Positions 22,160 to 53,669 of a DNA stretch of 64,000 bases are shown here, piece after piece. Below the pieces are notes generated by a model that worked only from the letters and a program-made list of their open reading frames with translations, did no database searches and was not told the origin of the DNA. Positions within the stretch are counted from its first letter, which is position 1. Every line of letters starts with the position of its first letter. The position numbers and the translations under genes are program-made. This DNA comes from Ruminococcus flavefaciens (GTDB lineage Bacteria > Bacillota > Clostridia > Oscillospirales > Ruminococcaceae): assembly GCA_023667045.1 (NCBI GenBank), contig JAMPAU010000010.1, positions 1 through 64,000 of the forward strand, read 5' to 3'.

Positions 22160-23410
22160 TTAAAATTTATAAAAAAACCCGATAAGCACTGTCATCATTG
22201 CAACCAACAATATTTGTATTCCAAGACCGTATCTCACATAATCCTTGAATTTATAGCCGATACGCATTGTCATGCCTATAAATCCGCATGAAAGAGGTGT
22301 AAGTATTGCCAGTCCGGAAGCAAATGCAACAGCAATTATAAAAGGTCTTTCATTAAATCCAAACTGCTGTGCAAACTGTATTGCAAAAGGCAGTATAAGT
22401 ATTACTGTTGTTGTATTAGAAATAACATTGCTTACTGCAACCGTAATCAATATAACTGCAAACAGAAGAACCATAGGCGGTATATCAGCCGGAAAAACTT
22501 TGAATATCATTTCACATAATTTCTGTACACAACCGCTCGCATTAAGACCGTTTGCCATGCCTATACTGCAACCAAGCCATATCAATATATTCCAGTCCAC
22601 TTTCGCAAAAGATTCTCTTTGCTTTACCGCAGAACCGACTATACATATGACTGCACCTATCAATGAGGCAATTCCTACCGAAACGGCTTCCGTTATGAAA
22701 AGTATAAGCATAACTATTCCTGCAAAACAAGTAACAATGCATTTTTTCCGGTCGGGCTGAAAAGACAGGCTGTCATTCTGTAATTCTGAACTGTCAATTT
22801 TTTCGTTTTTCCAAATATTTTTTCCTTTCCTGTAGGAAAAAATCAGCAGAAACGGCAGTGACACCAAAAGCATGATAATTCCGACCGGAAGCAATTCAAA
22901 CATGGCTATTCCCTCTCCTGTTATCTCCTCTGCTATTGAAGACGATATGAGAGTGGCAGGAGCTCCGATAAGGGTACATTGTCCGCCTAATATAGCAAGA
23001 TATATCACAGGGAGAGTAATATTCTTTACATTTACATTTTTTATCTCCTGTGCAATACTGATACATATTACAAGCATCAAAGCACAAACCACTTGATTAT
23101 TCAGAAAAGCCGAAAGAAAAGCTGAAATAAGTCCGGCAAAAAATATTATTCTTTTTTCTTTTCCTTTTGATAATTCTGCAATCTTTCTGGCTGTCAGATT
23201 AGACAGTCCGCTTTCTTGATATGCAATTCCAAAGATTTCTGTTCCAAAGACAATAAGTATTATATCATTTGCGAATCCGGAAAAAGCGTCCTGAAGTGTG
23301 CATACTCCGCAAACTACATAAGCCACGCACCCTGCCAACGTTATTGTAGCAGGAGGTACAATATCAATAATAAACAGTATAAGACACAACAAAAAAATTA
23401 TACCAGCCAT
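22160..23410 (-). CDS. SLC13/ArsB-superfamily membrane transporter
   Basis: 416 residues with about ten to eleven transmembrane helices of the ion-transporter (SLC13/CitMHS/ArsB) type. The repeated signature appears as GGQCTLIGAPATLISSS and near the C-terminus as NVISNTTTVILILPFA. Such proteins move sulfate, di- or tricarboxylates or oxyanions, coupled to cations. It lies 56 bases after the last NRPS gene and shares the final terminator, so it is probably the last gene of the biosynthetic operon. It could import a precursor (for example sulfate for cysteine) or metal-citrate, or it may be unrelated. Confidence 0.75.
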   Translation of the reverse strand: MAGIIFLLCLILFIIDIVPPATITLAGCVAYVVCGVCTLQDAFSGFANDIILIVFGTEIFGIAYQESGLSNLTARKIAELSKGKEKRIIFFAGLISAFLSAFLNNQVVCALMLVICISIAQEIKNVNVKNITLPVIYLAILGGQCTLIGAPATLISSSIAEEITGEGIAMFELLPVGIIMLLVSLPFLLIFSYRKGKNIWKNEKIDSSELQNDSLSFQPDRKKCIVTCFAGIVMLILFITEAVSVGIASLIGAVICIVGSAVKQRESFAKVDWNILIWLGCSIGMANGLNASGCVQKLCEMIFKVFPADIPPMVLLFAVILITVAVSNVISNTTTVILILPFAIQFAQQFGFNERPFIIAVAFASGLAILTPLSCGFIGMTMRIGYKFKDYVRYGLGIQILLVAMMTVLIGFFYKF

Positions 23411-23466
23411 AATCCCTCCAAGAAATAATTATTTGCAAAAAACTTGTATTTTCCGCTTTTCACTAG

Positions 23467-26400
23467 TTATATAAGTTCGTTTATAATATTCTGCCACTGT
23501 TCAGTTATATAAGCCATTTCATCTTCATAGAAAAATGTTTCGTCATAATAAAAGTGATATGTACATATTTCACAGTTCATATCTATCATAAGCTGTAGCT
23601 TAGTGGCATTGCTTTCATTTTTTTCCTTGATATATTCAAGTGTTCCGTGTCCCGTGCTGTTTCCCGATTCCATAAGATTAAGCATAATATCGGAATATAC
23701 GGAATTAAGTTTCTGTGTAAGACGGTTCTTTCGTACGTACTGCCTAAATGAACCGCTAAGCTGTGAAGAAGCCTCTATAACTGCTGTCTGAGTATTCTGA
23801 AGCTGTTCCGCAAAACTTTTTTCGGGATTCCAATGTACACAGGCAATTACTTTTTTAACAAACATTCCTATTGTGTCTTCGTACTGTCCGTCAGAGCGGT
23901 CTGACATCGGCATAGCTATCCACATTTCCTGCCGTTTGGAAATATTGTATATAAGCTGTGCATACATTGTCAGCATTCCGGAAAATAAAGAAACGTTCTC
24001 TCTGTGGCATATTTCCCTAAGATTTTTCAGAGCTTCAGAAGAAAATTCAATTTCATTGTGAATCATTGAAATATCTGGACTAACCTGCTCCGGAATTTCA
24101 AACTCCTCAATCGGTTCTGCTTTTTTAAGATTTTCCCATGTCTCATTATACGACTGACTTTCATTCAGTCGGCTACGAACATATTGAAAATATGAATCAC
24201 TCTTTGTATCATTACAAGATATACCGTAATATCTATCAAGGATTTTTCTGTAAACAGTACAGAAAGACTGTTCGTCAGAAATTATATGATGCAATGAAAT
24301 ATATAAAATACTCTTTTCTTCGGGACAATCAATAAGAATAAAACGATAAAGAGGTCCTGCACTCAAATCCATAGGCATATCCGCCAGCATTTTTATCATT
24401 TCTGAAACTGTCCGCCTGTCGCTGAGGTGCATTATCTGAAGACAATGTTCTGGAATATTCTGATTAATGTTCTGTCTAACTCGTCCGTCTTTCTGTATTG
24501 CAAAAGATGTACGTAATATAGGTTCTTCATTAAGAAGCTCCTTTATTGCAGATTCCAGTCTTTCTTCATTCGGACGCTCGGCAAGTTCAAGTTTTGCCGC
24601 AAGAACATATCTTGTATTTTCATTCATGCTTGAATATACCCACATATCTTCCTGCTCCGGTGAAAGCGGGTATTCGTCGGTCGTATTGACAGTATTTTCT
24701 GCCGGCTTGTCTGCTGATAATTTATCAATCAGCTTTATCCAGTCTTTGTAATATGGTTCTCTAAGGAAATCCGACAACGGTATCTTTACATCAAATTCGG
24801 AACGTATTTTACTGATAATCTTTATTGCGTCAAGCGAGTTTCCGCCGTTCTGATAAATACTGCGATGAAGTATAATGTCTTCGCCGAGTACATCACGGTA
24901 TATTCTTTCAAGCTTTTTTTCATTCTCTGTCACTGCAATGATTTCAGTTTCTTCTTCAAAACTGAATTTCTGAAGTTTTCGTATATCAGTTTTGCCGTTT
25001 GCAGTAAGAGGAAACTCCTCAATGTACTGATACTTTGCCGGACACATATAACGAGGCATATTTTCACGTGCAAACTTGTCAAGTTCTTCTGAAGATAAAG
25101 GCGACTCCGCTGTATAAAAAGCTGTCAGCAGTCCGGCATTTCCGGCTGTCGTCACAACACATCTTATTATTTTTTCATTTGAGTTCAGAATACTTGCGAC
25201 ACCCTCAAGCTCTACACGTTTTCCGTTAATCTCAACCTGAAAATCCTTTCTTCCCCCAAATGCAACCTCGCCGTTTGGAAGATACCAACCGCAGTCTCCA
25301 GTGTTGTACCACCTTTCACCGTCTATTTCAATAAAACGCTTTGCAGTTTCTTCCGGATTGTTGTTATAGCCCTTAGCCATTCCAATGCCTCTTGCATACA
25401 TTATTCCCTCAACTCCAAAGGGACAAATTCTGTGCAACTGATTCATTACCCTGTACTGCAATCCGTCAAGAGCGTGTCCGTATGGTATTAAATCGCTCTC
25501 CATGTCTTCAGCGGTTACTCTGTGCCAACTGCTCCATATTGTCGTCTCGGCAGGACCGCCAACATTATACAGCAGTTTAGGATTAATAATATCATTTATC
25601 TGAACTGCCAAACGTGGTGTAAATACTTCACCGCCAAGCACTACTACTTTGAACTGTCCTTTAATCTGATGAAGTTTTTCGCCCTCTGTCAAAAGCATTT
25701 CGATAACCGACGGGCTACTGTTCCATACGGTTACTTTGTGCTTACAAATAAGCTCAAACCATATTTCAGGATTTTTTGAAAACTCTGAACCTTCCGGAAT
25801 AACAACCGTACCACCTGCCGTAAGTATTCCTACAGTATCATAAACTGACATATCATGGCAGAAATTTGTCACTGCAATACAACTATCAGAACTATTTATA
25901 CCAAATTCACGGTTAGTCTGAATAACACAGTTTACAAGACCTGCCTCGTTAAGCATTATTGCTTTTGGAAGTCCAGTAGTGCCGGAGCTGTGAATACAGA
26001 AACATTCAGCGTCACGGTTTTTCCTTACGAATATTTCATAGCCATACTCTCTGTCAAATTTAATGCTGTTCACGTCAATAACAGGAATATCAGTGATATT
26101 TTTCCAACGCTCAATATAAGGGCTTTCGGTAGCAAGACAAGACACTCCAAGATTATTCAGCATTTTAAGTAAAGTCTGTTCATTCTGTTCAATTTCAAGC
26201 GGAACAAATGTCATGTTTCCGATAAGACAAGATATTTCAGTGGCGGGGTGTTTCCAACCTTTTTCAAGCAGAATACCTACACGCATATGTGCTGAATTAC
26301 TGCATTTTTTCTTTACTTCATCAATAAAAGCACCGGCAAAGTTTCGCAGTTCCCTGTAAGTAAGTTTAGTTGTATTGCTTATTATTGCATACTTATTCTC

Positions 26401-27792
26401 GTCAGCGGAAAAACTTTCATAAAGCAGATTTCCGAAATTATCGTCTGATACAGGAGGAGTTATTTCTTTCAATAATAATTTCTCCTCGTCGCAAGTAAGC
26501 GGTACGCTTTTAATATCCTCCCAGTTGAAAGGAGATTCAGCAAATTCATTTATGAGAGATATAAAAGCGTCAGCTATTTTATTAACAGTAGCCGTATCGA
26601 CTTTTTCCTCTATATAATCCATAGTCATGAGGATAGAATCCTGAGTATGCATAAGAATAGAATCCAGCCAGACCTGACTTGTACGAGTTTTTGCATAGAC
26701 TTTTTTCAGTTCCTTGCCCTCACAGAAAGGCACATCGAGCGTACTTGTAAGTACAACCGGAGCTATCAGCGTACCCTCACGCTGTCTCTGAAGTTCTTGT
26801 ACAACCTCTATGCCGGAAAAACTGCGGTGTTCAAAAAGTTCAAAGAAACGCTCCTGTACAGTATATGCCGATTCAAGTATATTTTCATTGCACTTTTCAT
26901 TCCAGTCAAAAATCAGAAAATCCGAATATTCTCCTCCTGCCCTCAGCGAATCCGGTTCTTCCGGCAGTCTGGCAGATATTGGTATATTGATAAGAAACGG
27001 ATATTCACTGCTGTACTTTGAAATAGCCTTTCCGTATGCTGTAAGGAAAACAATAAACGGAGATATATGCAGTTTATTGGCATTTTTACGGATTGAAGAA
27101 TATGTCTCTGTAGTGATTTCTCTAAGGAGCTGACGGCTTGTTTCTGTATTTTTTTCCGGAATATTGCGTGACCTAAGGTCAGGAGCATTCGGAAAATCCT
27201 TTATCTGTTCAAGCCAGTATTCTTTATCCAGTCTGTATTTTTCCTGTTTTTTCATAGCGGTTCTGTTTTCTGCATACTTCTGAAATGTATAGCTGTTGTG
27301 GAGCGGTTCGGTTATATCTCCGCAATAAAATTTATCCAAATCGCCAAGCAACATTTCATGACTCCAACCGTCCAGTATAAGACCGTCATGATAAATATGT
27401 ATTCTTGCTCCGCCGTCTTTAAACCTTGTAACTTCAAAGTACACAAGATGAGGACTGTCAAAACTGAACTCCACAGAAAATATCTCTTTACGGCGATTTT
27501 CTATATACTCTGCCGATTCTTCTTCAGATGTTTCAAGAAAATTTACAGGAATATTGATTTTTGTATTATCTGTTATTTCCTGTGTGCCGTCGCTGTATAT
27601 CTTACATCTGAGCATTTCGTAACTCTGCATAAGAAGCTCAACAGCCTTTACAAAACGCTCATGGTCATATTTTTTACATTTAAGCTCAGAATAAGCACGT
27701 ACAGAATTACCGCTTTCGTCAGAGTGCGACCGTCCTATAAAGTACGCCATTTGCATATCTGTAAGCTTAAACCGTTTATTTTCAGTATTCAA
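23467..27792 (-). CDS. NRPS, Cy-A-PCP-C
   Basis: 1,441 residues. The N-terminal domain (about 1-440) is a heterocyclization domain: the motif is D136-x4-D141-xx-S144 (HDGLILDGWS) instead of HHxxxD. The adenylation domain (about 450-935) has HSSGTTGLPKA and pocket residues read as D-M-Y-N-V-G-V-I-W, related to but different from the cysteine code, so Cys, Ser or Thr is possible. The carrier domain has the phosphopantetheine serine in QNGGNSLDAI. The C-terminal domain (about 1040-1441) is an ordinary condensation domain with HHIISDEQS. There is no thioesterase, so this C domain probably passes the chain to a nucleophile on another carrier or a free amine. Confidence 0.93.
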   Translation of the reverse strand: MNTENKRFKLTDMQMAYFIGRSHSDESGNSVRAYSELKCKKYDHERFVKAVELLMQSYEMLRCKIYSDGTQEITDNTKINIPVNFLETSEEESAEYIENRRKEIFSVEFSFDSPHLVYFEVTRFKDGGARIHIYHDGLILDGWSHEMLLGDLDKFYCGDITEPLHNSYTFQKYAENRTAMKKQEKYRLDKEYWLEQIKDFPNAPDLRSRNIPEKNTETSRQLLREITTETYSSIRKNANKLHISPFIVFLTAYGKAISKYSSEYPFLINIPISARLPEEPDSLRAGGEYSDFLIFDWNEKCNENILESAYTVQERFFELFEHRSFSGIEVVQELQRQREGTLIAPVVLTSTLDVPFCEGKELKKVYAKTRTSQVWLDSILMHTQDSILMTMDYIEEKVDTATVNKIADAFISLINEFAESPFNWEDIKSVPLTCDEEKLLLKEITPPVSDDNFGNLLYESFSADENKYAIISNTTKLTYRELRNFAGAFIDEVKKKCSNSAHMRVGILLEKGWKHPATEISCLIGNMTFVPLEIEQNEQTLLKMLNNLGVSCLATESPYIERWKNITDIPVIDVNSIKFDREYGYEIFVRKNRDAECFCIHSSGTTGLPKAIMLNEAGLVNCVIQTNREFGINSSDSCIAVTNFCHDMSVYDTVGILTAGGTVVIPEGSEFSKNPEIWFELICKHKVTVWNSSPSVIEMLLTEGEKLHQIKGQFKVVVLGGEVFTPRLAVQINDIINPKLLYNVGGPAETTIWSSWHRVTAEDMESDLIPYGHALDGLQYRVMNQLHRICPFGVEGIMYARGIGMAKGYNNNPEETAKRFIEIDGERWYNTGDCGWYLPNGEVAFGGRKDFQVEINGKRVELEGVASILNSNEKIIRCVVTTAGNAGLLTAFYTAESPLSSEELDKFARENMPRYMCPAKYQYIEEFPLTANGKTDIRKLQKFSFEEETEIIAVTENEKKLERIYRDVLGEDIILHRSIYQNGGNSLDAIKIISKIRSEFDVKIPLSDFLREPYYKDWIKLIDKLSADKPAENTVNTTDEYPLSPEQEDMWVYSSMNENTRYVLAAKLELAERPNEERLESAIKELLNEEPILRTSFAIQKDGRVRQNINQNIPEHCLQIMHLSDRRTVSEMIKMLADMPMDLSAGPLYRFILIDCPEEKSILYISLHHIISDEQSFCTVYRKILDRYYGISCNDTKSDSYFQYVRSRLNESQSYNETWENLKKAEPIEEFEIPEQVSPDISMIHNEIEFSSEALKNLREICHRENVSLFSGMLTMYAQLIYNISKRQEMWIAMPMSDRSDGQYEDTIGMFVKKVIACVHWNPEKSFAEQLQNTQTAVIEASSQLSGSFRQYVRKNRLTQKLNSVYSDIMLNLMESGNSTGHGTLEYIKEKNESNATKLQLMIDMNCEICTYHFYYDETFFYEDEMAYITEQWQNIINELI

Positions 27793-27798
27793 ATTATA

Positions 27799-28545
27799 TC
27801 ATCTCCTGTCAAGTATCAGATTAATTATATCAGCAGTATGGTTCTGAGGGAAAAAATGTCCGCCGGAATACTTTTCAAGTGAAAACTGTGCAGATGTATA
27901 TTTTTCCCAAAGCTGACAGTCTTTTTCTGTTACGCTGTCATCTTCAGTACCTATCATACATATTATGGGACAATCAAGCTTTATTTTGGGTTTACGTGTG
28001 TACATTTCACACAAATGGAAATCCTTTCTGACAATAGGAAAAAAATAACTGCAAAATTCCGGTGAAGAAAGAAGTTCAGAATCCATTTGCTCATATCCGT
28101 TAAGTATCTCTGTAAGTTCTTCGTCTGAAGCACTGACAGCACTTCTTCCGGTTATCTGAATCTCCGGAATAACAGGTGCAGAAGCTCCCGAAACCACAAG
28201 CAATTTAGGAGTTATGCCGTATTTTGTTTTAAGCTGATATGCAGTTTCATATGCAATAAAAGCCCCCATACTGTGACCGAAAATAATAACAGGTTTGTCA
28301 AATATGCCCCTGCATTCCCTTATAAAGCACTCAACAAGTTTTTCAATATTTTCAGGTAGTTCCTCGTCGATTCTGCTTGACCTCATTGGCAATTCAACCG
28401 CACAGAGTTCTACATTGTCACCGCATAATTCTGCCCAAGGAAGATACCATGAGGCATTCCCTCCGGCATGGTGAAAACAGATTAATCTGTATTCAGCGTC
28501 AGCATTTTCCTTTCGCCTAAAAAACCATTTATCTGACGTTTTCAT
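27799..28545 (-). CDS. Type II thioesterase of the NRPS/PKS system
   Basis: 248 residues of alpha/beta hydrolase fold, matching GrsT/RifR-type editing thioesterases. The N-terminus reads RLICFHHAGGNASWYLPW, the nucleophile is Ser in FGHSMGAFIAYE, and the catalytic His is in SGGHFFPQN. It removes misprimed acyl groups from carrier domains and could also release product, since no integrated thioesterase is present. It lies between the two NRPS genes with gaps of under ten bases. Confidence 0.93.
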   Translation of the reverse strand: MKTSDKWFFRRKENADAEYRLICFHHAGGNASWYLPWAELCGDNVELCAVELPMRSSRIDEELPENIEKLVECFIRECRGIFDKPVIIFGHSMGAFIAYETAYQLKTKYGITPKLLVVSGASAPVIPEIQITGRSAVSASDEELTEILNGYEQMDSELLSSPEFCSYFFPIVRKDFHLCEMYTRKPKIKLDCPIICMIGTEDDSVTEKDCQLWEKYTSAQFSLEKYSGGHFFPQNHTADIINLILDRR

Positions 28546-28549
28546 TTTA

Positions 28550-31500
28550 TCACCTCTCAGATTCTGATTTCAGCTTTTCAATGTACTCAGCCATTTTCTC
28601 AAAAACAGCATATCTGAAAATCATGCCTATTCTTAACTCCACATTAAATTTCTTATTCACTGCATAAATCAGACTGGTTGCTTTCAATGAATTTCCGCCC
28701 AGTTCAAAATAATCAGAGTTACGGCTTATTGTTTTAACGGACAGATTTTCTTTCCAAATATCAGCAAGGATTTTTTCAGTTTTGCCTACAAATTCTACTG
28801 ATTCTGTCTCAGTCTCTATATTATCCGGTACTTTAAGAGCCTTGCGGTCAAGTTTGCCGTTTTTTGTAACAGGCATACTTTCCAGTCTGATTATTATTTT
28901 AGGGAGCATATAACTTGGTATACGTTCTTTAAGAAAACTGAGTATTTCATTTTCACTAATATCAGTTTCCTTATCGGCAGTATAAAAAAGAGCTATTGAC
29001 CTTGAGCCATTTTTTTCATAAACTACTGCTGATGTTTTTAAAATACCTCTGCACTGTTCTGTCTCCGATTCAATCTCTCCGAGTTCGATACGATGACCCT
29101 TAATTTTTACCTGAAAATCAGTTCTGCCTAAAAATTCAATCATGCCGTCCGACCAGAAACGACCGCTGTCGCCTGTCCTGTACCATTTCATGCCGTTTTC
29201 ATAGACAAATTTCTTAGCAGTAAGTTCTTCCGAGTTGAAATATCCCACAGCAGTACCTGCTCCGCCTATCCAAAGTTCGCCGGCTACCCAGTCGGGACAA
29301 TCACGACCCCAGCTATCAACAACACGGTATATCTGTGCTTTTAGTGCGTTTCCGTAAGGAATGCTTTTCCATTCTGCCGGAACTTTATCCGGAACTACAA
29401 GAAGATTAGACCATATTGACGCTTCTGTAGCTCCGCCCATAGCATATATTTTACATTGAGGAATTATTTTTCTGCATCTCTCAACAAGCGGTATACCTAT
29501 CCAGTCACCAGAGAGCATTATTGTTCTCAAAGGAAGTGAAACGGCACGCTGTTCAGCAGAAGTGATAAGCATATCAAAAAGAATCGGTACGCTGTTCCAA
29601 ATGCTTATGTTATTGTCAGTTATTATATTTGTCCATTTGTCAGCGTCTTTTACTATCTGTCCGGACAATATATAAAGAGTTCCCCCTACCGACGACATAC
29701 CGAAAATATCATAAACTGAAAGGTCAAAATCTGTAGCCGAAACTCCAAGCACAGAATCGTTTTCAGTTGCGACAATACGCATATTTATGTCATTTATAGT
29801 ATTCATTGCACTTTGATGAGATATTTCAACGCCTTTAGGCTCACCTGTAGAACCCGAAGTCATTATTATATATGCACTGTCATCTGCACTGATTCTGGGA
29901 GCAATATACTGTATAGTGTCTTCTGTCGATTTATAAGGAGATACGGAAATGACACCTTCCGGAATCTGTTCTTTGTCTGTAACCACAAATTTTATATCAA
30001 GTGAGACAAAAATCTTATTAAGACGCTGTTCGGGCTGGTCGTAACTTACTGGAACATAACATCCTCCTGCAAGAATAACGCCATAAATGGCAATAATCTG
30101 CTCTGCACCACGTGAAAGCATTATAGCGGTTGTCTGACCCTTTTTCAGTCCGGCTTTCTGAAGTCTTCCGGCAACATCACGGCTTTTTTCAAAAAGTTCC
30201 GCATATGTTATCTTTTCGCCTGTCTCACATATGTAAAGTGCGGTTTTATCCGGCATTTCCTTTGAATTGCGAATAAGTCCGTCTGTAAGCAGTCCGGTAT
30301 GCTCCGGATATTCTTCAAACGTTTCCTCAATTGTCTTGCGGATATAATTATCAGAAATTTCGGGATATATAACCGTATTCCAATCAGTTGAATCATCTGC
30401 AAGACGGTGAAGATATTTAATAAACGTTTTAAACATATCATCGGTCATTCCGTTTGGGAAAAGTTCGTCTGCCGTATCCCATACAAGCGAAAGCTCGCCG
30501 TTACGCTCGAAAACCTGACAGTCAATCCATACCTGAGGAGTCTGTGAAATCATATAATTTATTTCACCGATATTCTGTGCAAAATCATCATTAATAAAAT
30601 CCATTCCGATATTGCAGGCAAAAACTACTGGTGCAAAGTCTCTCTGACCCGAATATTTTTTCTGAAGAACTCGCTGAATCTGTACTCCGCTGTATGACGC
30701 ATACCTCATATCACGGATAAAGTCGGAACTTACTTTCTTTATGTTGTCACCAAAAGTCTTTTTTTCAGTGAAATCCTGTTCTGAAAGCAGAAGCGTTGTA
30801 AAGTCTGCTACTGCATTCTGTACATTGCCAAACTCCTCACTTCTGTCAAAAAGAGGCATATTAATAAGAAACTTGTCATTCCTGCTCCAACGGTGGATAG
30901 TCTGAGAATAAGCAGTAAGAAGTACCATCGCCGGAGTAACTCCGAAATCAGCAGAACGTTTTTTCAGCTTATCCCATTCAGCAGAAGAAACTGTATCTAT
31001 GTGGTGGCTTACTTTCATTTCTGTTATCTGTTCCGGAGATTTTGCAAGAGGAATATCCGGTCTCAAAGAAAGAGTTTCTATGCGTTCCTGCCAGTATTTT
31101 TCAGATTTTTCATATTCTTCACGACGTTCTTTTCTGGCAGTTTCAATATAATCCGCAAAACTCCATTTCGGGTCGGTCTCCGGAAGTTTTTCATAACAGT
31201 AATACTGTGCAATATCACGCAGAACAATCTTGATACTCTGAACGTCGCAGACAATAAGTGCAAAGTCAATTATTGTCATGCTTTTTCCATTGCTAAGTAT
31301 ACAATGTTGCATACCTGCCGTTTCGCCGTCTTCAAGACGGAAAAGACGATGAGAGAGTTTGTTTCTGAGTTCTGAAAGGCGTATCTCCTGTTCTTCTTCA
31401 CTCATACCGCTGAAATCATAAATATGAAAAGAATCGGGATAAGGCTCAGACATAGTAACCTGTTTGCCGTCTTTAGTAAATTTCGTATGGAGCATTGAAT

Positions 31501-33537: not shown

Positions 33538-33542
33538 ATCAA

Positions 33543-34202: not shown

Positions 34203-34203
34203 T

Positions 34204-39606: not shown

Positions 39607-39607
39607 A

Positions 39608-43549: not shown

Positions 43550-43584
43550 ATAATATTCCTTTCATTTTTTATGCATAGGATAAT

Positions 43585-44484: not shown

Positions 44485-44487
44485 GTT

Positions 44488-44733
44488 TCAGTCCTTCTGA
44501 GCCAAAAGCTTTTCAACAGCAGACTTTATGTCATTCACTGTTACAAGATTAGAATAATCCATTTCATCGTTAATGTCATACTCGTCCTCAAGGGCTGAGA
44601 TAAGGCTGATTGTGTCGAGAGAGTCAAGTTCAAGGTCTTTACGCAGACAGGTCTCTCCGGTAATTTCAACATCGTCATCGATACACAGTTCTTCTCTGAT
44701 TATCTCGATAATTTTTTCCATTTCAACTTTCAT
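44488..44733 (-). CDS. Free-standing acyl carrier protein
   Basis: 81 residues, acidic and helical. The phosphopantetheine serine is in LRKDLELDSLDTISLI. It lies four bases after the PKS gene (on this strand) and is closer in sequence to fatty-acid/polyketide ACPs than to PCPs. It may carry the extender unit, the starter, or the product of the trans-acting A-PCP protein. Confidence 0.93.
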   Translation of the reverse strand: MKVEMEKIIEIIREELCIDDDVEITGETCLRKDLELDSLDTISLISALEDEYDINDEMDYSNLVTVNDIKSAVEKLLAQKD

Positions 44734-44736
44734 GAT

Positions 44737-47700
44737 TTACTTCCTTTCTTCAATTAAATCTGATATTTCCCGTATATTTGTACAGCCAAGCATATCCTTT
44801 ACGGAAAAATCTACTCTGAATTTATTTTTTATCTGAGAGCATATCATAAGCCCACAGAGAGAGTCAATATCATATGAATAAATAGACGTTTCAAGATTAT
44901 CTATTTCAATTCCGGTGATATTCCTTATGATTTCGCACAGCTCAGAATCAATAGAGTTACGGCATATGCTGTTTACAGAAGTCTTAGTCTCCACATCAAG
45001 ACAGCGTTTTTTCCAGTTCTCCGGAACTGTAAACCTTACTCCCTGCGACTTTGATTCCTCTGCAAATTCAGATACATATTTCTTTTCATATCCTGCTATC
45101 GCCAAAGCCGGAGCTTTTTCATTCTGATAAAGAACTCTATCATTTTTCTTTCGTCCAAAAAGAAGTGCAGTATCAGTAAGCAGATTTTCGCTTCCGTCGA
45201 AATGAACTGTATCAACAAATCCGCTCTCTGAAAGAACTTTGCAGAACTGCTCCGAATCAAGAACAGGACTATATTTTCTAAGAGAATCCTGCTGATAATT
45301 CCACCATTCCGGACACAGACCGTACAGCATTTCACTTGTATGGTGTCCGTCAACCGTCTGTATAAGTGCAATCATACCACCAGAACGGAGTGCTTTACGG
45401 CATTGTTCAAGTGCATTTATCATATCGTTTGTCGCCTGAATAACATTACATGAAACAATAACATCAAAATAATCTTCGGGAACTCCTTGACTATAAAAAT
45501 CTTTTGTAACATCTATATAGCAGAACTCCATACATTTATAATTATTTTCAGAAGACCTTTTCCGTGCCTTTTTGATAAAAGACGTTCCGATGTCGCTGAA
45601 CCAGTATGAACCGCCCGACTTTTCAATGACGGGCACTGCATTCCATGTCACAAGCCCTGTACCTGCTCCTATCTCCAGAACTTTCAGAGGACGACGGCTA
45701 TTTTCAGTAAGTTTTTCAAGCATTTTGGAAAAAATCTCAGAATAAAGCGTTACTTTATTCATAGCAGGAATATTTTTATAAACATCAAACAATTGCTGAT
45801 AAGAACCCTCTGGATAAAGTATTTCCTTACCTAGTATCATACCCTCAAAAACATCACCATAACGGCTTGCACATTTTGCAAAAAACTCTGTAAATGCAGA
45901 ATACTCACTATGAGATAATTTGACTTTTTCTTTTACCTCGTTCATTGTCTCACAGCCGGAAATACTCTTTTCGCATACAATAATATCTTGATATTCAAGA
46001 TTCTGAGGTATTTTTTCAAAATTTACATATCCGAACTTTCTGAGATAATCAAGCATAAGCATTACAAACGGACGATATTCTGAAATAACTTTTATTTTTT
46101 CACAAAGACCGCCCCATGTAACTGTAGATTTTTCTTTTATGAAACAGCTATAACTCTTAAAGTAGTCGGCAGACGCTGTGAAACATAACAGGTCAAAAGC
46201 TTCACTAAGACCGGATACTTCCTTTATACAGCGAAAATCTGAACTTTCAAGTATACTGAGTTCAATATTTCTGAAATCATTGTACAGTGCTGTATTGTCG
46301 TTATCAAAAGCCTGCTCCGGCAAATACTGTACCGCCTTGACTTCTCCCTGCTCTTTAAGATATGCCATGAGTTCCGACATTTTTTCATTATTTCCGTCAA
46401 GCACCCATGACTTTGAAGACGACACTGTAAACTTGCTTTCACGTTCTTCAGTTTCGTTATATACCTTTTCGACAAATGCAGCCGGAGGCAAGTATATTTT
46501 GTGTCCGCTATATGATAGACTAACAGCGTCAAGCGTGTCAAGCATAGCAAGTCCAGTAAAAAAGGCACTTCCCTTATCTGATATATCTTCTGGAATAATA
46601 CTTACAAACTCTTTATTTTTACGTGATTTTACAGTCTTCTTGACAAAATATGAAAGCTGTTCGCCAAATCCAATCTCAATACAAAGCACGTTTTCCATTT
46701 TGTCTATCACTGATACAGAATCTGCAAACCGCACCGGACTGCGAAGTTGTTTAATCCAGTAATCTTTAGAAGTAATTTCACTGCACGCTTCTTTTCCGAG
46801 TGCTGAGGATATAAACCGTATCTTTGGCTCTGTGAAACTTATATCATTGAGAAGACAATCAAATTCCGGCAGTATTCCGTCAACCAAACAACAATGTCCG
46901 GCACGTTTAAGAGGAAGTTCAGTACAGAATACCTGTTCTTTTTCGAGTTCTGCAAGATAAGCCGATACTTTGTCAGATTCTCCGGCAATCATAAATCTGC
47001 TCGGAGTATTTACCGCTGACACTGAAACACCGTCCGGAAATTCAAAATCATCTGGTCTGCCATAAACAGAAGCCATTTTGCCCTCCGGCAGTTTTTCAAA
47101 GAGCCTGTTACGTCTTGAATACAGCTTGATAAGAGTTTGTTTAGAAATCGCTCCGGCAAAGTATGCTGACAGATATTCTCCGGCACTATGTCCGAGAACA
47201 GCGTCGCATTTCACGCCTAAATCACGGAGATATTCGCCCAATGCACACTGAACACATACCGACAAAAGAGATATTGAATATTCGTCGGTCTCCTCAGTAC
47301 CGGATATGCATTTTTTGAGGTCAACACCGCATTCATTCAGTACGATTCTGAAAACGTCGTCTAACAATTCCCGAAGTTTATTATCTGCCTTGTAAAGTTC
47401 AGCTATGTCAGCCGTACTGAATACATTGCTACCCGGAAACAGCCAAACAATAGTTTTATCTTTTACAGAATCAGCGTCGACCGCTCTGAATGGTGCTTTC
47501 ATAGTCTTTGCAAGTTTAACCGAATCGTCAGAACCAAAGCCTACTCTGAATCTTTCTTTTTTTCTGAATCTGTTAAGCGTGAATCCTATATCAGACAAAT
47601 CAATATCCGGATTTTTTTCAATAAATTCAGCAATACTGTTGCAGTTTTTTCTGAGAGCTTCTTTGCTTCTTCCGGTAACAACTATGCTTGAAAATTCTTT

Positions 47701-48981
47701 TTTCTTATAGTTATCTTTTACTAACTTAGGGGCAGAAGAAAGCACAATATGACAGTTGTTGCCACCTACTCCGAATCCACTCACTCCGGCATACCGTATA
47801 CCGCTGTTCCATACGATATTCTTAGACGGAACTATGTAGCCATATTCATTCATATGCAGTTCATCGTTAAGTGCGTCGCAATGAAGTGACGGCGGAATAA
47901 TACCTTTTTCAAGCATTAAAACAGTCTTTATAAAGCCCGACACTCCGGCAGAATAGTTCAGATGACCAACATTTGATTTTACTGAACCAATATAAAGCGG
48001 ATTGTCATTTTCCCGATTGCCGTATACTTTCTGTATCGCTGATATTTCAATAGTATCTCCGAGAGCGGTGGCTGTTCCGTGAGCCTCGATATATCCTATA
48101 TCGTCTGGTTCAATACCAGCAACAGAAAGTGCGTCGCTCAGAGCGTCCGTCTCGCCTTTTACGCTTGGTGCAGTGTAGCTTATCTTATCAAAGCCATCAT
48201 TATTGATTGCTGAACCCTTGATAACCGCATGAACCACATCGCCGTCACGCAGACAGTCGGAAAGACGTTTAAGAAGAACCGCACCACCGCCATTACCGGG
48301 AACAAATCCGTCCGCATCTTTTGCAAAAGGTCTTGTTACTCCGCTGACAGACAGAGTATTCTCGGCATTTGAATACCAGTCTTGTTCTTCAATCAGATTT
48401 ACTCCTCCGGCAACCGCCATATCACACTCGTCATTAAGTATCGACAGCACAGCTTCATGTATGGCATAAAGCGAACTGGCACAGGAGGCTTTTACAGGCA
48501 TACACGGACCAGTAAAGTTCATGTGATAGCCTATCCTTGAGGCAAAAGAACCGTCAAGGTAGGTTTTTCTTAACATCAGTTCTTCGGCTGATTCGGCTGG
48601 AATTAAAAAATAACCTTTCCATACATACATAAAGTCAAAACTACTACAAAAAAGCCCTATCCTTTCGGATTCTCTCTTGCCGGAATATCCTGCTGTTTCA
48701 AGAGTTTCTGCACACAGCTTAAACATAAGTCTCTGATGAGGGTCCATAATCTTTGCAGAAGACTCAGTAAGCCCGAAAAACTCCGGTTCAAAGGAATACA
48801 TATCATCAATCTTTCCAAAAGCGAAAGTTTTTCCGTCTTCGTGCTTGTCCTGACGTGTTATACAGTCTTTGCCGTCTTTAAGGTTTTCCCAAAAATGCTC
48901 AACAGAATCAGCCTCCGGAAATCTGCATGAATAACCTATAACTGCAATATCGGTATCTTTCACATCATATATTTCTTTCAT
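44737..48981 (-). CDS. Type I polyketide synthase, KS-AT-MT-ACP
   Basis: 1,414 residues. The KS (about 8-430) has Cys167 in KASCASSLYA, His301 in EAHGTATALGD and His340 in NVGHLNYSAG. The AT (about 510-800) has Ser599 in GHSAGEY; its substrate motif is RAGH (693-696), not HAFH (malonyl) or YASH (methylmalonyl). xAGH motifs are associated with ethylmalonyl-type extenders. A carbon methyltransferase (about 1060-1270) has VLEIGAGTG (1101-1109) and the LCPEWW motif. The ACP has Ser1374 in DIDSLCGL. No ketoreductase or dehydratase is visible, so the beta-keto group should persist unless processed in trans. The CCR-like gene lies immediately upstream. Confidence 0.94.
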   Translation of the reverse strand: MKEIYDVKDTDIAVIGYSCRFPEADSVEHFWENLKDGKDCITRQDKHEDGKTFAFGKIDDMYSFEPEFFGLTESSAKIMDPHQRLMFKLCAETLETAGYSGKRESERIGLFCSSFDFMYVWKGYFLIPAESAEELMLRKTYLDGSFASRIGYHMNFTGPCMPVKASCASSLYAIHEAVLSILNDECDMAVAGGVNLIEEQDWYSNAENTLSVSGVTRPFAKDADGFVPGNGGGAVLLKRLSDCLRDGDVVHAVIKGSAINNDGFDKISYTAPSVKGETDALSDALSVAGIEPDDIGYIEAHGTATALGDTIEISAIQKVYGNRENDNPLYIGSVKSNVGHLNYSAGVSGFIKTVLMLEKGIIPPSLHCDALNDELHMNEYGYIVPSKNIVWNSGIRYAGVSGFGVGGNNCHIVLSSAPKLVKDNYKKKEFSSIVVTGRSKEALRKNCNSIAEFIEKNPDIDLSDIGFTLNRFRKKERFRVGFGSDDSVKLAKTMKAPFRAVDADSVKDKTIVWLFPGSNVFSTADIAELYKADNKLRELLDDVFRIVLNECGVDLKKCISGTEETDEYSISLLSVCVQCALGEYLRDLGVKCDAVLGHSAGEYLSAYFAGAISKQTLIKLYSRRNRLFEKLPEGKMASVYGRPDDFEFPDGVSVSAVNTPSRFMIAGESDKVSAYLAELEKEQVFCTELPLKRAGHCCLVDGILPEFDCLLNDISFTEPKIRFISSALGKEACSEITSKDYWIKQLRSPVRFADSVSVIDKMENVLCIEIGFGEQLSYFVKKTVKSRKNKEFVSIIPEDISDKGSAFFTGLAMLDTLDAVSLSYSGHKIYLPPAAFVEKVYNETEERESKFTVSSSKSWVLDGNNEKMSELMAYLKEQGEVKAVQYLPEQAFDNDNTALYNDFRNIELSILESSDFRCIKEVSGLSEAFDLLCFTASADYFKSYSCFIKEKSTVTWGGLCEKIKVISEYRPFVMLMLDYLRKFGYVNFEKIPQNLEYQDIIVCEKSISGCETMNEVKEKVKLSHSEYSAFTEFFAKCASRYGDVFEGMILGKEILYPEGSYQQLFDVYKNIPAMNKVTLYSEIFSKMLEKLTENSRRPLKVLEIGAGTGLVTWNAVPVIEKSGGSYWFSDIGTSFIKKARKRSSENNYKCMEFCYIDVTKDFYSQGVPEDYFDVIVSCNVIQATNDMINALEQCRKALRSGGMIALIQTVDGHHTSEMLYGLCPEWWNYQQDSLRKYSPVLDSEQFCKVLSESGFVDTVHFDGSENLLTDTALLFGRKKNDRVLYQNEKAPALAIAGYEKKYVSEFAEESKSQGVRFTVPENWKKRCLDVETKTSVNSICRNSIDSELCEIIRNITGIEIDNLETSIYSYDIDSLCGLMICSQIKNKFRVDFSVKDMLGCTNIREISDLIEERK

Positions 48982-48988
48982 ATCCTGT

Positions 48989-50212
48989 TTATTTCCCTCC
49001 TATTCTGACAACAAGCTTACCATTATATTTGTTGTTTTCCAAATCCATATGTGCCTGTGGAAGTTCAGACCATGAATATATTTTGCCTATCTGAGGGTGA
49101 ATGTCATTCTCTTCGACTATCTTTATATATTCAAGTGCTTCTTTTATAGTTCCTGCATGAGAACCTTGAATCCTGCATTGATTAAGCCAAAGAAAGCGGA
49201 GGTCAATATCAGCAATATAGGAACTTGTCGCTCCGCAGAGAACTACCATTCCTCCGCTGTCGCATACAAAAAGCGATGTCGGGAGTGTATCTCTGCCGGG
49301 GTGTTCAAGTACTATTGCCGGAGACTTTTTTTCACCTACTATTTTCCATATGCTCCTTTTAAACTTTGTTGCCTGAGCTATCCATTTCATATATTCACTT
49401 TCATTCAGACCGCTTACATTGCCCCAATGCTTGAATTTTTTCCGGTTAATATAGCCGACAGCACCTATACTCTTACAAAACTCTCCTTTTTCATCGCTTG
49501 ACACTACCGCTACCGGCAATGCCCCTTGAGCTTTGGCGAGCTTTATGGCAGACGAACCAAGTCCGCCTGCTCCGCCCCATATCAGTACAACGTCGCCTTT
49601 TTTCAGCTTGTTGCCGTCCCAGCGGTTAAACATACGGTAAACAGTCACTCCTGTTGCATATGCTGCTGCCGCCTCGTCCCAGTCAAGATTATTTGCTATA
49701 GGAACACACTGACACTCCTGCACTCTTGAAAACTGTGCAAAAGCACCATAGTTTCCCTCATAGCCCCATATATGATATGACGGACTGAAACACGGGTCCA
49801 TTCCGGCAGAAATATCGGGGTCAGAAATATCATATTTAGAACCGCCTGCACACAGTCTGTCACCGACCTTATACCTTGTTACGTTTTTTCCGACAGCATA
49901 AACAATGCCCGACGATTCTGAACCGCATATATGAAAATCCTGTTTTTCATCTGTATAATCGCCGTTTCCGTCGATTACGTTCTTAGGACTTCCCTTTGCT
50001 GCCCATATACCATTGTAATTTATTCCTGCACTCATATTATATATCAGAAGTTCATCATCACGTATTTCGGGTACTGGTACTATTTCCTCACGGTATGCCG
50101 TTTCCGGAGAACCAAGACGCTCATTTCTTATCGTCCATGCTCTCATCATGTAAGGCACTACTCCAATCGGAGGAGCTTCGCCGATTTCAAATATTTTGTC
50201 TGTACGCTCCAT
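48989..50212 (-). CDS. Crotonyl-CoA carboxylase/reductase homologue
   Basis: 407 residues of the medium-chain reductase family with the CCR signature pattern: INYNGIW, HIWGYEGNYGAFAQF, LIWGGAGGLGSSAI (nucleotide loop), VLEHPGRDTL and GSHAGTIKEA. CCR enzymes reductively carboxylate 2-enoyl-CoAs with NADPH and CO2 to give ethylmalonyl-CoA and longer alkylmalonyl-CoAs. The CO2-pocket residues (Asn, Phe, Glu and His in the Kitasatospora enzyme) appear here as Asn of NYN, Tyr151 for Phe, Glu152 and His352. It is shorter than the usual 445 residues at the N-terminus. ATG 50212 is chosen because AAAGGTGG precedes it. It probably makes the extender for the PKS encoded next. Confidence 0.88.
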   Translation of the reverse strand: MERTDKIFEIGEAPPIGVVPYMMRAWTIRNERLGSPETAYREEIVPVPEIRDDELLIYNMSAGINYNGIWAAKGSPKNVIDGNGDYTDEKQDFHICGSESSGIVYAVGKNVTRYKVGDRLCAGGSKYDISDPDISAGMDPCFSPSYHIWGYEGNYGAFAQFSRVQECQCVPIANNLDWDEAAAAYATGVTVYRMFNRWDGNKLKKGDVVLIWGGAGGLGSSAIKLAKAQGALPVAVVSSDEKGEFCKSIGAVGYINRKKFKHWGNVSGLNESEYMKWIAQATKFKRSIWKIVGEKKSPAIVLEHPGRDTLPTSLFVCDSGGMVVLCGATSSYIADIDLRFLWLNQCRIQGSHAGTIKEALEYIKIVEENDIHPQIGKIYSWSELPQAHMDLENNKYNGKLVVRIGGK

Positions 50213-50227
50213 ACTATCCACCTTTCA

Positions 50228-52474
50228 TCATTCAAGATTTGATTTCAGGCTCTCGCCTATATCTGCCTTGTCAACCTTTCTTCTAAGCAAAAGAAGCGAT
50301 ACAAAGTAACTTGCAAATATACAAGCAAAGTAAATCAAAATACTCGACCAACTGATATATGCCTTGATATAGCAATTGAAACTTTCAACGTTGGCTTTGA
50401 AATAGAAATCAGAAAACAGATAGCCAAGCCCAAGTCCAAGAAGTGACGAAATAATCAGCACTATGTAATATACATTGAGAACCATACCGTTGATTTCCTT
50501 GTTTTTCAGACCAAGTATTTTGAGCATTGAAATCATTGATGAATTTTCCTGAATAAGCATATTTACCATAAGATAAACAACTATCACACAGATAATACAG
50601 CCGATTACAACAGTTGTAGTCATTGAAGGAATTATGCCGTCAATAACTGCTTGTATCTGGTCACGCATTGATTTCTTTGAAACTGTAGATGAAAGTACAC
50701 TGTCTGAATAATCAAGCTTTTCACTGCTCATTACAACATTGTATACATCTTCCGGAAGTTCAAAGAGTTCACATATATTCTCTCTTGAAGAATAAAGCAC
50801 GCACTGAACGTCATTGGTAACTATATCGTCGATTTTTACCTTATAGAATTTCATAGATGAAGACTGGAAAAACTCAATAGTATCGCCTGCCTCAACTCCG
50901 TACTGTTTTGAAGCCATTGAAGTGAGATAGAATTTTCCGTCGTCAAGGTCGGCACTGTTTCCCGATTCCGTATCGAAATTCAGATAAGGATTATCTTCAA
51001 CGCCAAGCACACTGAGTGAACCGTCAGAATCCTTTACTTCAAAATTCATTCCTACAGCTACTGCCGTATCGGATTTCACTTCATCGTCAGAAAAGTTTTT
51101 AAGAAAATATTCATACGTGAAATCTCCGGCAATCTTTATTGCTTCGTCTCTGTAATTTATACATGAGTCAATGACAAACAGTGCATACACCATAACTATA
51201 CCGCTGATTATCACTCCGGCAACAAATGAAAGTGTACGTGATTTATGCTTTGTAAGAGTACGTATCATATAGGCGGTACGTATCTTCATTTTATCAGTAC
51301 CCTTAAATACAGACTTTTTTGTTTTTTCTGTGCTTTGTCCTCTGAGAAGTCCTGTAACATTTCTGCCGGAAATGCGTACTATCTGAACAAGCGAGAATAT
51401 ACCATAAAGTACTGACGGCAGAATCAATGCCATAATGAAATTCAACGGTGTAATATTATATTCCGCCGGAAGATTTTCAATCTTGAAAAAACATATAGAT
51501 ACTATTGAACTCTTAGCGGAAATCGAAAGTATTATTCCTAAAATACTTCCCAGAATCGCCGGAATAAGCGGAAATACAACATAATGCCGGATAATCTGAG
51601 ATTTTTTTATGCCGAGAGCAAGTAGTACGCCTATCTGCCGGCTGTCACGTTTCAGATGACGACCAAGTACTACTGCCGACAGAATAATAACTATCAGCAT
51701 GATAACAGGAAGTATCATATTCGCATACATTCCAAGCTGTTCAGTAAGACCATTTGGTTTGGTAATACGTTGGTTCATTTCAGCCGGAGTATACTGCAAA
51801 GTATTATACTCGTCATATAGTGCCTGACGGAAAGTAATCTTGTCATCTTCCGTTGCATTGTCAGCATAAGCGACAGAATAATACTCACTGCCACCGTCTG
51901 ACGAAATCTTTTGATAACCTTCATCAGAAAGAACACAGATACCAAATTCTTCATCATTATGGTAACTGTCTGAAATTTCTTCAAGCATAAAAAGATAGTC
52001 AGGTCTTTCTACAATACCTGTAACGCTGAATGTATTGCCTTTTAATTCAATAGTATCTCCGATAGCAATTGAATTAGCGTCGGCAAAATTACGGCTTATC
52101 ACTGCCTCAGAATCAGAGGAAGCGTCATTGCCGTCAATAACTGCATATTTATTTACCTTGTAAGTCCTGCTGAAAGCCCTTACATTATAATTTTCTTCTT
52201 CACAGTTAACATAATGGTTAGCCTCTATTTTCACATCATATTTATTTTCAAGGTCTGCTATCTGTTCATCGTCAAGAGAAACCGGAAGTATAAACTGTCC
52301 ATCTTCAACAACATTATCAGCATAAAAATTTTCCAGATAAGCCTTCTCACCGTTTATACCTGCCTGAAAACAGAGATAAAGTGCTATTGCGATTGCGGTA
52401 AGAATGGCAGACAGAATATAAAAGGAAAGATTTTTCTTGAAATTCCGTTTATATCTTTTATTCAAAGTAAGCAT
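50228..52474 (-). CDS. FtsX-type ABC transporter permease
   Basis: 748 residues. The layout is an N-terminal helix (LSFYILSAILTAIAIALYLC), an outer domain, three helices, a second helix and outer domain, and three C-terminal helices. The cytoplasmic loop LALGIKKSQIIRHYVVFPL and its C-terminal counterpart LKILGLKNKEINGMVLNVY are FtsX landmarks. It lies 20 bases after its ATPase gene. It is probably the first of two exporters for the product or for self-protection. Confidence 0.88.
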   Translation of the reverse strand: MLTLNKRYKRNFKKNLSFYILSAILTAIAIALYLCFQAGINGEKAYLENFYADNVVEDGQFILPVSLDDEQIADLENKYDVKIEANHYVNCEEENYNVRAFSRTYKVNKYAVIDGNDASSDSEAVISRNFADANSIAIGDTIELKGNTFSVTGIVERPDYLFMLEEISDSYHNDEEFGICVLSDEGYQKISSDGGSEYYSVAYADNATEDDKITFRQALYDEYNTLQYTPAEMNQRITKPNGLTEQLGMYANMILPVIMLIVIILSAVVLGRHLKRDSRQIGVLLALGIKKSQIIRHYVVFPLIPAILGSILGIILSISAKSSIVSICFFKIENLPAEYNITPLNFIMALILPSVLYGIFSLVQIVRISGRNVTGLLRGQSTEKTKKSVFKGTDKMKIRTAYMIRTLTKHKSRTLSFVAGVIISGIVMVYALFVIDSCINYRDEAIKIAGDFTYEYFLKNFSDDEVKSDTAVAVGMNFEVKDSDGSLSVLGVEDNPYLNFDTESGNSADLDDGKFYLTSMASKQYGVEAGDTIEFFQSSSMKFYKVKIDDIVTNDVQCVLYSSRENICELFELPEDVYNVVMSSEKLDYSDSVLSSTVSKKSMRDQIQAVIDGIIPSMTTTVVIGCIICVIVVYLMVNMLIQENSSMISMLKILGLKNKEINGMVLNVYYIVLIISSLLGLGLGYLFSDFYFKANVESFNCYIKAYISWSSILIYFACIFASYFVSLLLLRRKVDKADIGESLKSNLE

Positions 52475-52494
52475 ATCAACACTCCTGTTCCGTC

Positions 52495-53196
52495 TCAGAG
52501 TTCAAGCTGTTCTGCACTAAGCTTATTCTGATTTTTTTCATTATATATTACTTTGCCGTCTTTTATTCTGATAATCCTATCTCCCATTTTGCTGATTTCT
52601 TCGTTATGAGTAATAATAACTATAGTCGTGTTGTATTCCCTGTTGATTTTTTCGATAAACTGAAGAACATCAGCCGAACTTTTAGAATCCAAAGCTCCTG
52701 TAAGTTCATCGCAGAGGAGAAGTCTGGGATTTTTTATAACAGCTCTTGCAATCGCCACACGCTGCTGCTGACCTCCCGAAAGCTGACTGGGGAAACGGTC
52801 GGCAAGTGCGGATATACCGAGCGTCTCCATTACCTCGTCGATATTAAGAGGATTTTCACAGTATTCAGCAACTACACGTATATTTTCCTTAACCGTAAGG
52901 TCGCCGATAAGATTATAGAACTGAAAAACAAATCCTATATCTTTTCTTCTGTAAAGAAGAAGTTCTTTATCGTTCTTTCCGCTTATCTTTTCGTCCATAA
53001 AAGTAAACTCACCCTCTGAAAGAGTATCTATTCCGCCCAAGATATTAAGCATAGTACTTTTTCCAGAGCCGGAAGCTCCGAGAATAATGGCGACTTCTCC
53101 TGATTCCAAAGTCAAATCAGCACCATTGAGAGCGTTGACAACATTCTCACCTTTTCCGTATTTTTTAAAAGCGTTTTTTAGATTCAGTAATGGCAT
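52495..53196 (-). CDS. ABC transporter ATPase (LolD/MacB type)
   Basis: 233 residues. Walker A is GASGSGKST, Q-loop FVFQFYNLI, signature LSGGQQQRVAIARAV, Walker B LLLCDELTGALDS and H-loop ITHNEE. It is the first gene of the biosynthetic operon, with GGAGG about ten bases before the ATG. The second operator-like palindrome lies only 19 bases upstream of the start codon. Confidence 0.93.
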   Translation of the reverse strand: MPLLNLKNAFKKYGKGENVVNALNGADLTLESGEVAIILGASGSGKSTMLNILGGIDTLSEGEFTFMDEKISGKNDKELLLYRRKDIGFVFQFYNLIGDLTVKENIRVVAEYCENPLNIDEVMETLGISALADRFPSQLSGGQQQRVAIARAVIKNPRLLLCDELTGALDSKSSADVLQFIEKINREYNTTIVIITHNEEISKMGDRIIRIKDGKVIYNEKNQNKLSAEQLEL

Positions 53197-53214
53197 AATA
53201 TTCCTCCAATTTTA

Positions 53215-53228
53215 TTAGCAAAAGCTAA
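53215..53228. promoter_or_regulatory. Operator-like palindrome 2
   Basis: TTAGCAAAAGCTAA, a perfect 5-bp inverted repeat around AAAA, identical to 53279-53292 and followed by the same C. It lies in the 5' untranslated region of the operon. Confidence 0.65.
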
Positions 53229-53274
53229 CCTTATATTATTATAAAAACCCATACGGGTATTTATTATCTATATT

Positions 53275-53303
53275 TATATTAGCAAAAGCTAACATATTGT
53301 CAA
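53275..53303 (-). promoter_or_regulatory. Promoter of the NRPS/PKS operon
   Basis: On the reverse strand TTGACA (53303-53298) is followed after 17 bases by AATATA (53280-53275), or after 19 by TATAAA. The spacer is almost exactly filled by a palindromic operator, so repressor binding would block polymerase. Confidence 0.65.
53279..53292. promoter_or_regulatory. Operator-like palindrome 1, inside the promoter spacer
   Basis: TTAGCAAAAGCTAA. Its centre is 64 bp from the second copy, about six helical turns, so a dimer could bind both on one DNA face. The TTAG...CTAA ends resemble DtxR/IdeR-type metal boxes, but the regulator is not in the window. Confidence 0.65.
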
Positions 53304-53664: not shown

Positions 53665-53669
53665 TAAAA

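Follow-up and report, generated by a model that had tools for sequence, protein, structure and literature searches.

The window analysed here, a 64,000-nucleotide stretch of Ruminococcus flavefaciens DNA (contig JAMPAU010000010.1), carries on its minus strand an 18-gene operon for a hybrid nonribosomal peptide synthetase (NRPS) and polyketide synthase (PKS) assembly line (Table 1). The operon is intact and conserved, is probably active and appears from its control region to be linked to iron genes. Its 18 open reading frames (ORFs), from 53196 down to 22160, are each uninterrupted from start to stop and are spaced by -20 to +67 nt, which bears out the intact operon of about 31 kb proposed in the initial annotation of this DNA. 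All 18 proteins were compared with Pfam and NCBIfam, and these families matched every NRPS and PKS domain listed in that annotation, together with the crotonyl-CoA carboxylase/reductase (CCR) homologue, the thioesterase (TE), the 4'-phosphopantetheinyl transferase (PPTase) and the two exporters. Its list had lacked the LRR_5, 395-aa, 334-aa and Fer4-FrhB proteins and the identity of the last gene as a DASS/CitMHS transporter, and its end coordinate, 53303, falls on the promoter-like -35 element. The family searches gave no match to a KR, DH or ER domain in the PKS module, and Pfam and NCBIfam gave no confident match for the 334-aa protein. An audit of motifs found the Cys/His/His of the KS, GHSAG in the AT, the S-adenosylmethionine motif of the MT, HHxxxD in the C domain, a Ser in every carrier domain, GHSMG in the TE and WxxKEA in the PPTase. 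The G+C content over 22-54 kb is 0.33-0.43 in 2-kb steps, close to the mean of 0.396 for contig C24 of this genome (800 kb), and composition therefore gives no mark of foreign origin.

Table 1. Genes and control elements of the operon, with window coordinates and the basis of each assignment (id, identity).
Feature	Position	Strand	Basis
Promoter-like TTGACA-16-TAATAT, proximal	53276..53303	-	Sequence reading
Operator copy 1, RTTAGN6CTAAY, over the -10	53278-53293	-	Motif search
Operator copy 2, between promoter and ribosome-binding site	53214..53229	-	Motif search
ABC1, MacB/LolD-type ABC ATPase	52495..53196	-	Pfam/NCBIfam; 70-76% id in congeners
FtsX1, FtsX/MacB-type permease partner	50228..52474	-	Pfam; 61-63% id in congeners
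CCR homologue, AntE-like	48989..50221	-	TIGR01751 and pocket residues
PKS module KS-AT-MT-ACP	44737..48981	-	Families and motifs
Free acyl carrier protein (ACP)	44488..44733	-	Family and motif
LRR_5 (BspA-type) protein, 299 aa, conserved	43585..44484	-	Pfam; 51% id in both congeners
A-PCP in trans, Arg-rich C-terminal tail	41672..43549	-	Families, motifs, alignment
395-aa remote leucine-dehydrogenase (ELFV) relative	40417..41604	-	74% id in both congeners
ABC2, LolD-type ABC ATPase	39608..40369	-	Pfam/NCBIfam
FtsX2, FtsX-type permease	37267..39627	-	Pfam
334-aa protein, signal-like N-terminus and C-terminal transmembrane stretch (as read)	36219..37223	-	53% id in congeners
Fer4-FrhB_FdhB protein, 672 aa, divergent C-half, candidate anaerobic reductase	34204..36222	-	Families
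PPTase	33543..34202	-	Families; 35% id in G1259
Aryl-acid AMP ligase, PchD/DhbE family, altered pocket	31945..33537	-	TIGR02275, PDB match
NRPS ArCP-Cy-A(Cys-like)-PCP	28550..31945	-	PchE match, motifs
Free TE	27799..28545	-	Pfam
NRPS Cy-A(Cys-like)-PCP-C	23467..27792	-	Families, PDB match, motifs
DASS/CitMHS transporter, last gene	22160..23410	-	Families

Conservation in Congeneric Species

The operon recurs in two congeners. G1259 has 17 of the genes in the same order and G1318 has 16 of those 17 in order, the PPTase gene not being at its place; near-identical gene order in two other species excludes a chance grouping. The DASS gene is linked to the cluster in all three species, but in differing positions and orientations. 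Congener proteins are 35-78% identical to those of the window. The ratio of nonsynonymous to synonymous differences (pN/pS) is 0.14-0.60 over all gene pairs compared, values to be read as proportions rather than rates since synonymous differences are near saturation (pS 0.65-0.92). By this measure, constraint is strongest on the CCR, the ACP, the 395-aa protein and the ABC ATPases and weakest on the FrhB protein and the PPTase. Catalytic motifs are retained in the window, G1259 and G1318, with two differences: the AT Ser motif is GHSAG in the window and GYSAG in both congeners, and the second Cy-linked A domain has LW in place of IW in G1259.

The NRPS Front

The first NRPS has PchE as its best match among solved structures (E 3.8e-196), and the PDB matches of the NRPS proteins include the Cy domains of Irp2/HMWP2. 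Both Cy-linked A pockets read D(L/M)..Y, N, IW, apart from the LW of G1259, as in the aligned PchE and BmdB, and by known specificity codes we take both to select cysteine. The pyochelin-like logic that had been proposed for this locus thus holds. Pyochelin synthesis shares the aryl-AMP ligase and an ArCP-Cy-A protein with a Cys-type A domain; here, however, the two Cys modules lie on separate proteins, and the cluster has an extra A-PCP, a PKS/CCR part and an altered ligase pocket. Yersiniabactin synthesis (Irp2/Irp1) combines an aryl cap, Cy modules acting on Cys and one KS-AT-MT PKS module, all of which recur here, whereas the window has no KR and no third Cy domain and adds a separate A-PCP, a CCR and a free TE.

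The evidence does not support a pyochelin or yersiniabactin pathway proper, the systems to which the cluster had been likened. A genome-wide search with PF00425, the family by which a salicylate or 2,3-dihydroxybenzoate (DHB) synthase was sought, gives a single hit, a TrpE-like protein with an Anth_synt_I_N domain located outside the 18 genes, and no Gfo/Idh-type (PchG-type) thiazolinyl reductase was matched among those genes at E <=0.001 in a search limited to the cluster. As the TrpE-like protein is the sole hit, anthranilate may serve as the cap, or else an aryl acid imported from plant matter, rather than home-made salicylate. The ligase itself, with PchD as its best PDB match, scores 478 bits against TIGR02275, below the DHB cut-off of 723.55. 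Its pocket retains the Asn of HN(F/Y) and has, in all three species, Ala at the place of DhbE Ser/PchD Cys and Asn at that of DhbE Val/PchD Ile. The pocket of the A domain in trans is also conserved (FDGSLK/ACVPS/ISAGE/LYGPAECSCC). The Arg-rich C-terminal tail of this A-PCP protein (41672-43549) is retained in three species and may be a docking tail.

The Polyketide Unit

The branched polyketide unit suggested initially gains support from the CCR, which is closest to AntE of antimycin synthesis and scores 460.5 bits against TIGR01751, above the curated cut-off of 378.55. Counted on the alignment, after allowing for the PDB chain being offset by 2, its N70, Y154, E155 and H355 correspond to N81, F170, E171 and H365 of KsCcr, residues described as binding CO2 (PMC10966969, in part). 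Three of the four are identical, the change of F to Y occurs in AntE too, and all four are the same in the three orthologues. Next to H355 lies A356. This position is Phe in the crotonyl-CoA enzymes 4gi2 and 6na3, Gly in the putative enzyme 9kva and Val in AntE; by the same kind of counting it is V350 of AntE, the residue whose change to Gly supplies longer and bulkier alkylmalonyl-CoAs (PMC6117356, in part).

At the YASH/HAFH site of the AT all three species have RAGH, an xAGH form. Malonyl ATs are given as having HAFH there (PMC6164871, in part). In the related SmlC PKS, the MT was inactive when long alkyl chains were incorporated (from the same portion of PMC6117356), and by analogy methyl and alkyl branches may be mutually exclusive here as well. 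The antimycin type of system (AntD/AntE, SmlC) shares with the window a single KS-AT-(MT)-ACP module with an AntE-like CCR and an aryl-capped NRPS upstream. Unlike it, the window has no KR domain matched in the cluster and no fused TE, and it contains Cy domains and a free TE; the families of the 18 genes also give no indication of 3-formamidosalicylate synthesis.

Candidate Redox Enzymes

The cluster gave no match to a PchG-type reductase, which makes the FrhB and 395-aa proteins candidate redox tailors, although these roles are guesses. The FrhB protein has two CxxCxxCxxxC motifs and shares Fer4 and FrhB domains with BciB, an FAD/Fe-S vinyl reductase that takes electrons from reduced ferredoxin and reduces a C=C bond (PMC4836224, in part). 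Unlike BciB it is fused to a divergent C-half, as in FrhB fusions of other Clostridia. When compared by hhalign, this half aligns (probability 96.5, 13% identity) to the C-terminal portion of FrhB fusions from other genomes of the order, a portion that may be a polysaccharide pyruvyl transferase, judging from sequence only. FrhB relatives are common, in 56 of 245 genomes of the order, own included (E <=1e-40). The 395-aa protein is a remote relative of leucine dehydrogenase (phmmer E 0.012); its ELFV match (E 0.0019, 18.4 bits) stays under the cut-off of 23.4 and so leaves it outside the family. All three orthologues have GGGR at the place where leucine dehydrogenase has GGGK. In G1318, a nitroreductase-family gene (G1318:C11:15948-16676) is inserted between the first NRPS gene and the TE gene, and its product could oxidise or reduce a thiazoline.

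Promoter, Operator and a Probable Link to Iron

Rfam gave no matches in the whole window at the gathering threshold, nor in 53000-54300 at E <=1, so that no known riboswitch or T-box is indicated. Comparison of the window with the sister operons yielded the motif RTTAG-N6-CTAAY. G1259 has three copies before ABC1 and one before the DASS gene and G1318 has one before ABC1; read by eye, the first copy in both congeners comes after a -10-like hexamer. The motif lies upstream of cluster genes in six of seven loci with a CCR gene (window, G1259, G1318, G1342, G1275 and G117). The miss is G1338, a 3.2 kb contig in which the match falls inside a partial ORF; G1238, with a CCR fragment at a contig end, was left out of the seven. 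Elsewhere, G103 has one match, inside an NRPS ORF, and none was found in the rest of its stretch or in those of G035 and G028. A second site in G1318 (58228) precedes a gene with no assigned function, and three further sites in G1275 lie before a Trep_Strep gene, before the gene of an FMN_bind protein and between enolase and ABC genes. An earlier idea, that the box is specific to the cluster and not an iron box, was dropped once the sister operons had given this wider motif. The strict palindrome TTAGCN4GCTAA has three genomic occurrences, of which one falls within an ORF, and the reversed pattern has four.

The genome's own sites were scanned in 1.2 Mb of contig C24, about one third of the genome, with five in C24:1-800000 and three in 800001-1200000. 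Seven of the eight lie outside ORFs by script, as against a non-ORF share of 11.1%, and other gap lengths give 4/10. The eighth immediately precedes a ribosome-binding site and GTG start, which places all eight upstream of genes. With tandem copies counted once, 4/5 promoters are found by script (p 7e-4), or 5/5 with the eighth site as read (1.7e-5). The targets are feoA-feoA-feoB (first FeoA by Pfam, second by eye, FeoB by search), where the box, by eye, sits over the -10 as at the cluster promoter; the gene of a secreted protein with an SPKTG-like end motif and a Shr-like haem domain (4e-8, over part of the protein), with three boxes in tandem (C24:1075380-1075463); a DUF3793 gene with two (C24:766301-766373); and two ABC/FtsX pairs of MacB type (C24:495926 and 759419). 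The DUF3793 and Shr-like genes are candidate members of an iron regulon, and the two MacB-type pairs may export related compounds. The feo and haem genes under the box point to iron as the signal, and what had been offered initially, without evidence, as perhaps a metallophore now has support from an operator common to iron genes.

Proposed Product and Alternatives

We lean, a little to the favourable side of even, towards an operon for the synthesis and export of an aryl-(thiazoline)2-aminoacyl peptide with one branched, unreduced polyketide unit; the operon would be co-regulated with iron genes and its product would scavenge iron or a related metal. The ligase would load an aryl acid onto the ArCP, the two Cy modules would add and cyclise two Cys, and the terminal C domain would couple the chain to an amino acid held on the free A-PCP. 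The CCR would reductively carboxylate an enoyl thioester to give an extender, the KS-AT-MT-ACP protein would add that one extender, and the free TE would release the product for export by the MacB-type pairs, with the FrhB and/or 395-aa protein providing redox tailoring. A bolder form is doubtful. It would be a new class of metallophore from cellulolytic ruminococci that are obligate anaerobes, an aryl-bis(thiazoline)-aminoacyl molecule whose long or bulky tail derives from an alkylmalonyl unit and whose synthesis occurs under iron limitation only; a ferredoxin-fed FrhB protein and/or a repurposed leucine-dehydrogenase fold would take the place of the NADPH thiazoline reductase found in the pyochelin and yersiniabactin pathways.

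Several observations weigh against a metallophore of this kind, and its weakest step is that from iron regulation to metal chelation. No siderophore uptake genes were matched in the cluster; across the genome, where Peripla_BP_2 was the uptake family sought, the sole protein of that family adjoins cobalamin-like genes. The two MacB-type pairs and DUF3793 are not proven iron genes, and at two of the three feoB loci the stretches fetched contain no box. The operator scan took in a third of the genome, where the motif count is at the level of chance (5 against a Markov mean of 3.75, range 1-8, 12 runs, 800 kb) and not above that of other arrangements of the same arm letters (1-9 hits); the motif is non-random in placement only, not in number. 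PF00425 revealed no salicylate or DHB synthase, its single hit being TrpE-like, and in all three species Cy1 has Ala instead of Asp at the start of the DxxxxDxxS motif. Cy2 has this motif intact, and Cy1 retains the second Asp, the Ser and a TPQVWID motif and probably cyclises.

An iron-controlled weapon, with an antimicrobial or enzyme inhibitor produced in response to iron stress and MacB-type exporters that also give self-protection, is the more serious of the alternatives and still rather unlikely. Two dedicated MacB/FtsX exporters in a cluster with no matched uptake genes would suit it, as would the MacB-type pairs among the other operator targets and a CCR/PKS part like that of the antimycins, which are bioactive depsipeptides (PMC6117356, in part). 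The box, however, is common to ferrous iron and haem genes, and an aryl-thiazoline front is typical of metallophores. A metallophore for another metal (Zn, Mn, Cu or Ni), with a regulator answering that metal at the box, seems improbable: thiazoline metallophores can serve zinc, yersiniabactin being reported as a zincophore (PMC8636617, in part), but the box stands at feoA-feoA-feoB and at the Shr-like haem protein gene. Least probable is a silent or decaying cluster. The PPTase gene missing from its place in G1318 and the low identity of the PPTase and FrhB proteins would fit decay; against it, every frame is open, pN/pS lies between 0.14 and 0.60 in each gene pair compared, and the operator is conserved.

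A further alternative concerns the branch only and would fit any reading of the product. The CCR could be a plain enoyl reductase and the extender malonyl-CoA, with the MT supplying one or more branches, which we consider unlikely. All three species have the MT motif, and the related SmlC PKS, which has an MT, natively gives a gem-dimethyl group at that carbon (PMC6117356, in part); yet in each of them the CO2 pocket of the CCR retains its Asn, Glu and His, and RAGH stands where malonyl ATs have HAFH.

Related Clusters and Neighbouring Genes

A CCR was found in 7 of 115 genomes drawn from the genus, own included (E <=1e-20), in 2 of 297 from the family (own and G117; 1e-40) and in 1 of 341 from the class (own only; 1e-60; G117 outside that draw). 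The 395-aa protein was found in 1 of 297 family genomes, own only, and in 30 of 398 genomes of the phylum, own included (E <=0.01), the other 29 being weak (2e-6 to 7e-3). These draws, genus to phylum, are mutually overlapping samples of larger groups. In a scan of a genome collection with the PKS protein, 28 stretches fitted a pattern and 3 encoded a relative (Desulfobacteraceae, Actinobacteria and an uncultured bacterium), with 28-31% identity in the best segment.

Like the window, the loci of G1342, G1275 and G117 have a CCR (48-56% identical), PKS and thioesterase genes, an ABC/FtsX pair and the same operator upstream; unlike it, they include KS and SDR genes that stand alone and differ in NRPS layout, and the fetched stretches gave no match to the 395-aa or FrhB protein. 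The G1275 cluster (G1275:C26:33364-78544) is very large; it encodes several NRPS and PKS proteins and has an operator where it begins. That of G117, from another genus of the family (G117:C1:77495-98360), is divergent, with three operators in a shared promoter, a ligase-ArCP fusion, a Cy-A-PCP protein and stand-alone KS and AT. Further Cy/A clusters occur in G035:C48 and G103:C12, with 351- and 375-aa proteins whose N-termini resemble PchG/Irp3-type reductases, and in the own genome a stand-alone condensation-like protein precedes an AMP ligase (C79:31766-35012). A tandem ABC pair adjoining the cluster in G1259 and G1318 was considered as a siderophore importer and dropped, as the pair is not conserved: its best models, all below cut-off, are CydD/CydC in G1259 and MsbA in G1318, the two pairs are 26-30% identical, and the window has no hit at 1e-20.

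Dockerin-bearing proteins, one with LRR_5 repeats, are encoded on both sides of the cluster at 11237-12853 (+) and 56158-57180 (+), which suggests a cellulosomal host and fits the Ruminococcaceae. At 1090-3255 (+) lies a serine recombinase (Resolvase, Recombinase, zinc ribbon) with a C-terminus matching SpoVT_C, an unusual fusion, and the SUKH-3 immunity protein at 58683-59519 (-) hints at a polymorphic-toxin immunity island next to the operon.

Significance

Literature searches returned no description of this gene order; cluster databases were outside the comparison and novelty is unproven, the product class being new within the reach of these searches. A rumen survey counted 5,346 NRPS and 75 PKS clusters in 8,160 genomes (PMC8241843, in part), and a gut iron review ascribes siderophores to enterobacterial pathogens and knows of none from Bacteroides, which exploit siderophores made by other organisms (PMC12150765, in part). 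The RTTAG-N6-CTAAY motif offers a testable regulatory box that links a natural-product operon with iron genes in ruminococci. Alkylmalonyl-type CCRs are best known from actinomycetes, and one is now placed in an NRPS-PKS line of the Bacillota. The FrhB and 395-aa proteins provide two candidate anaerobic substitutes for thiazoline reductases. Should the product turn out to be an iron chelator, an obligately anaerobic member of the gut's fibre-degrading community would be making its own metallophore.

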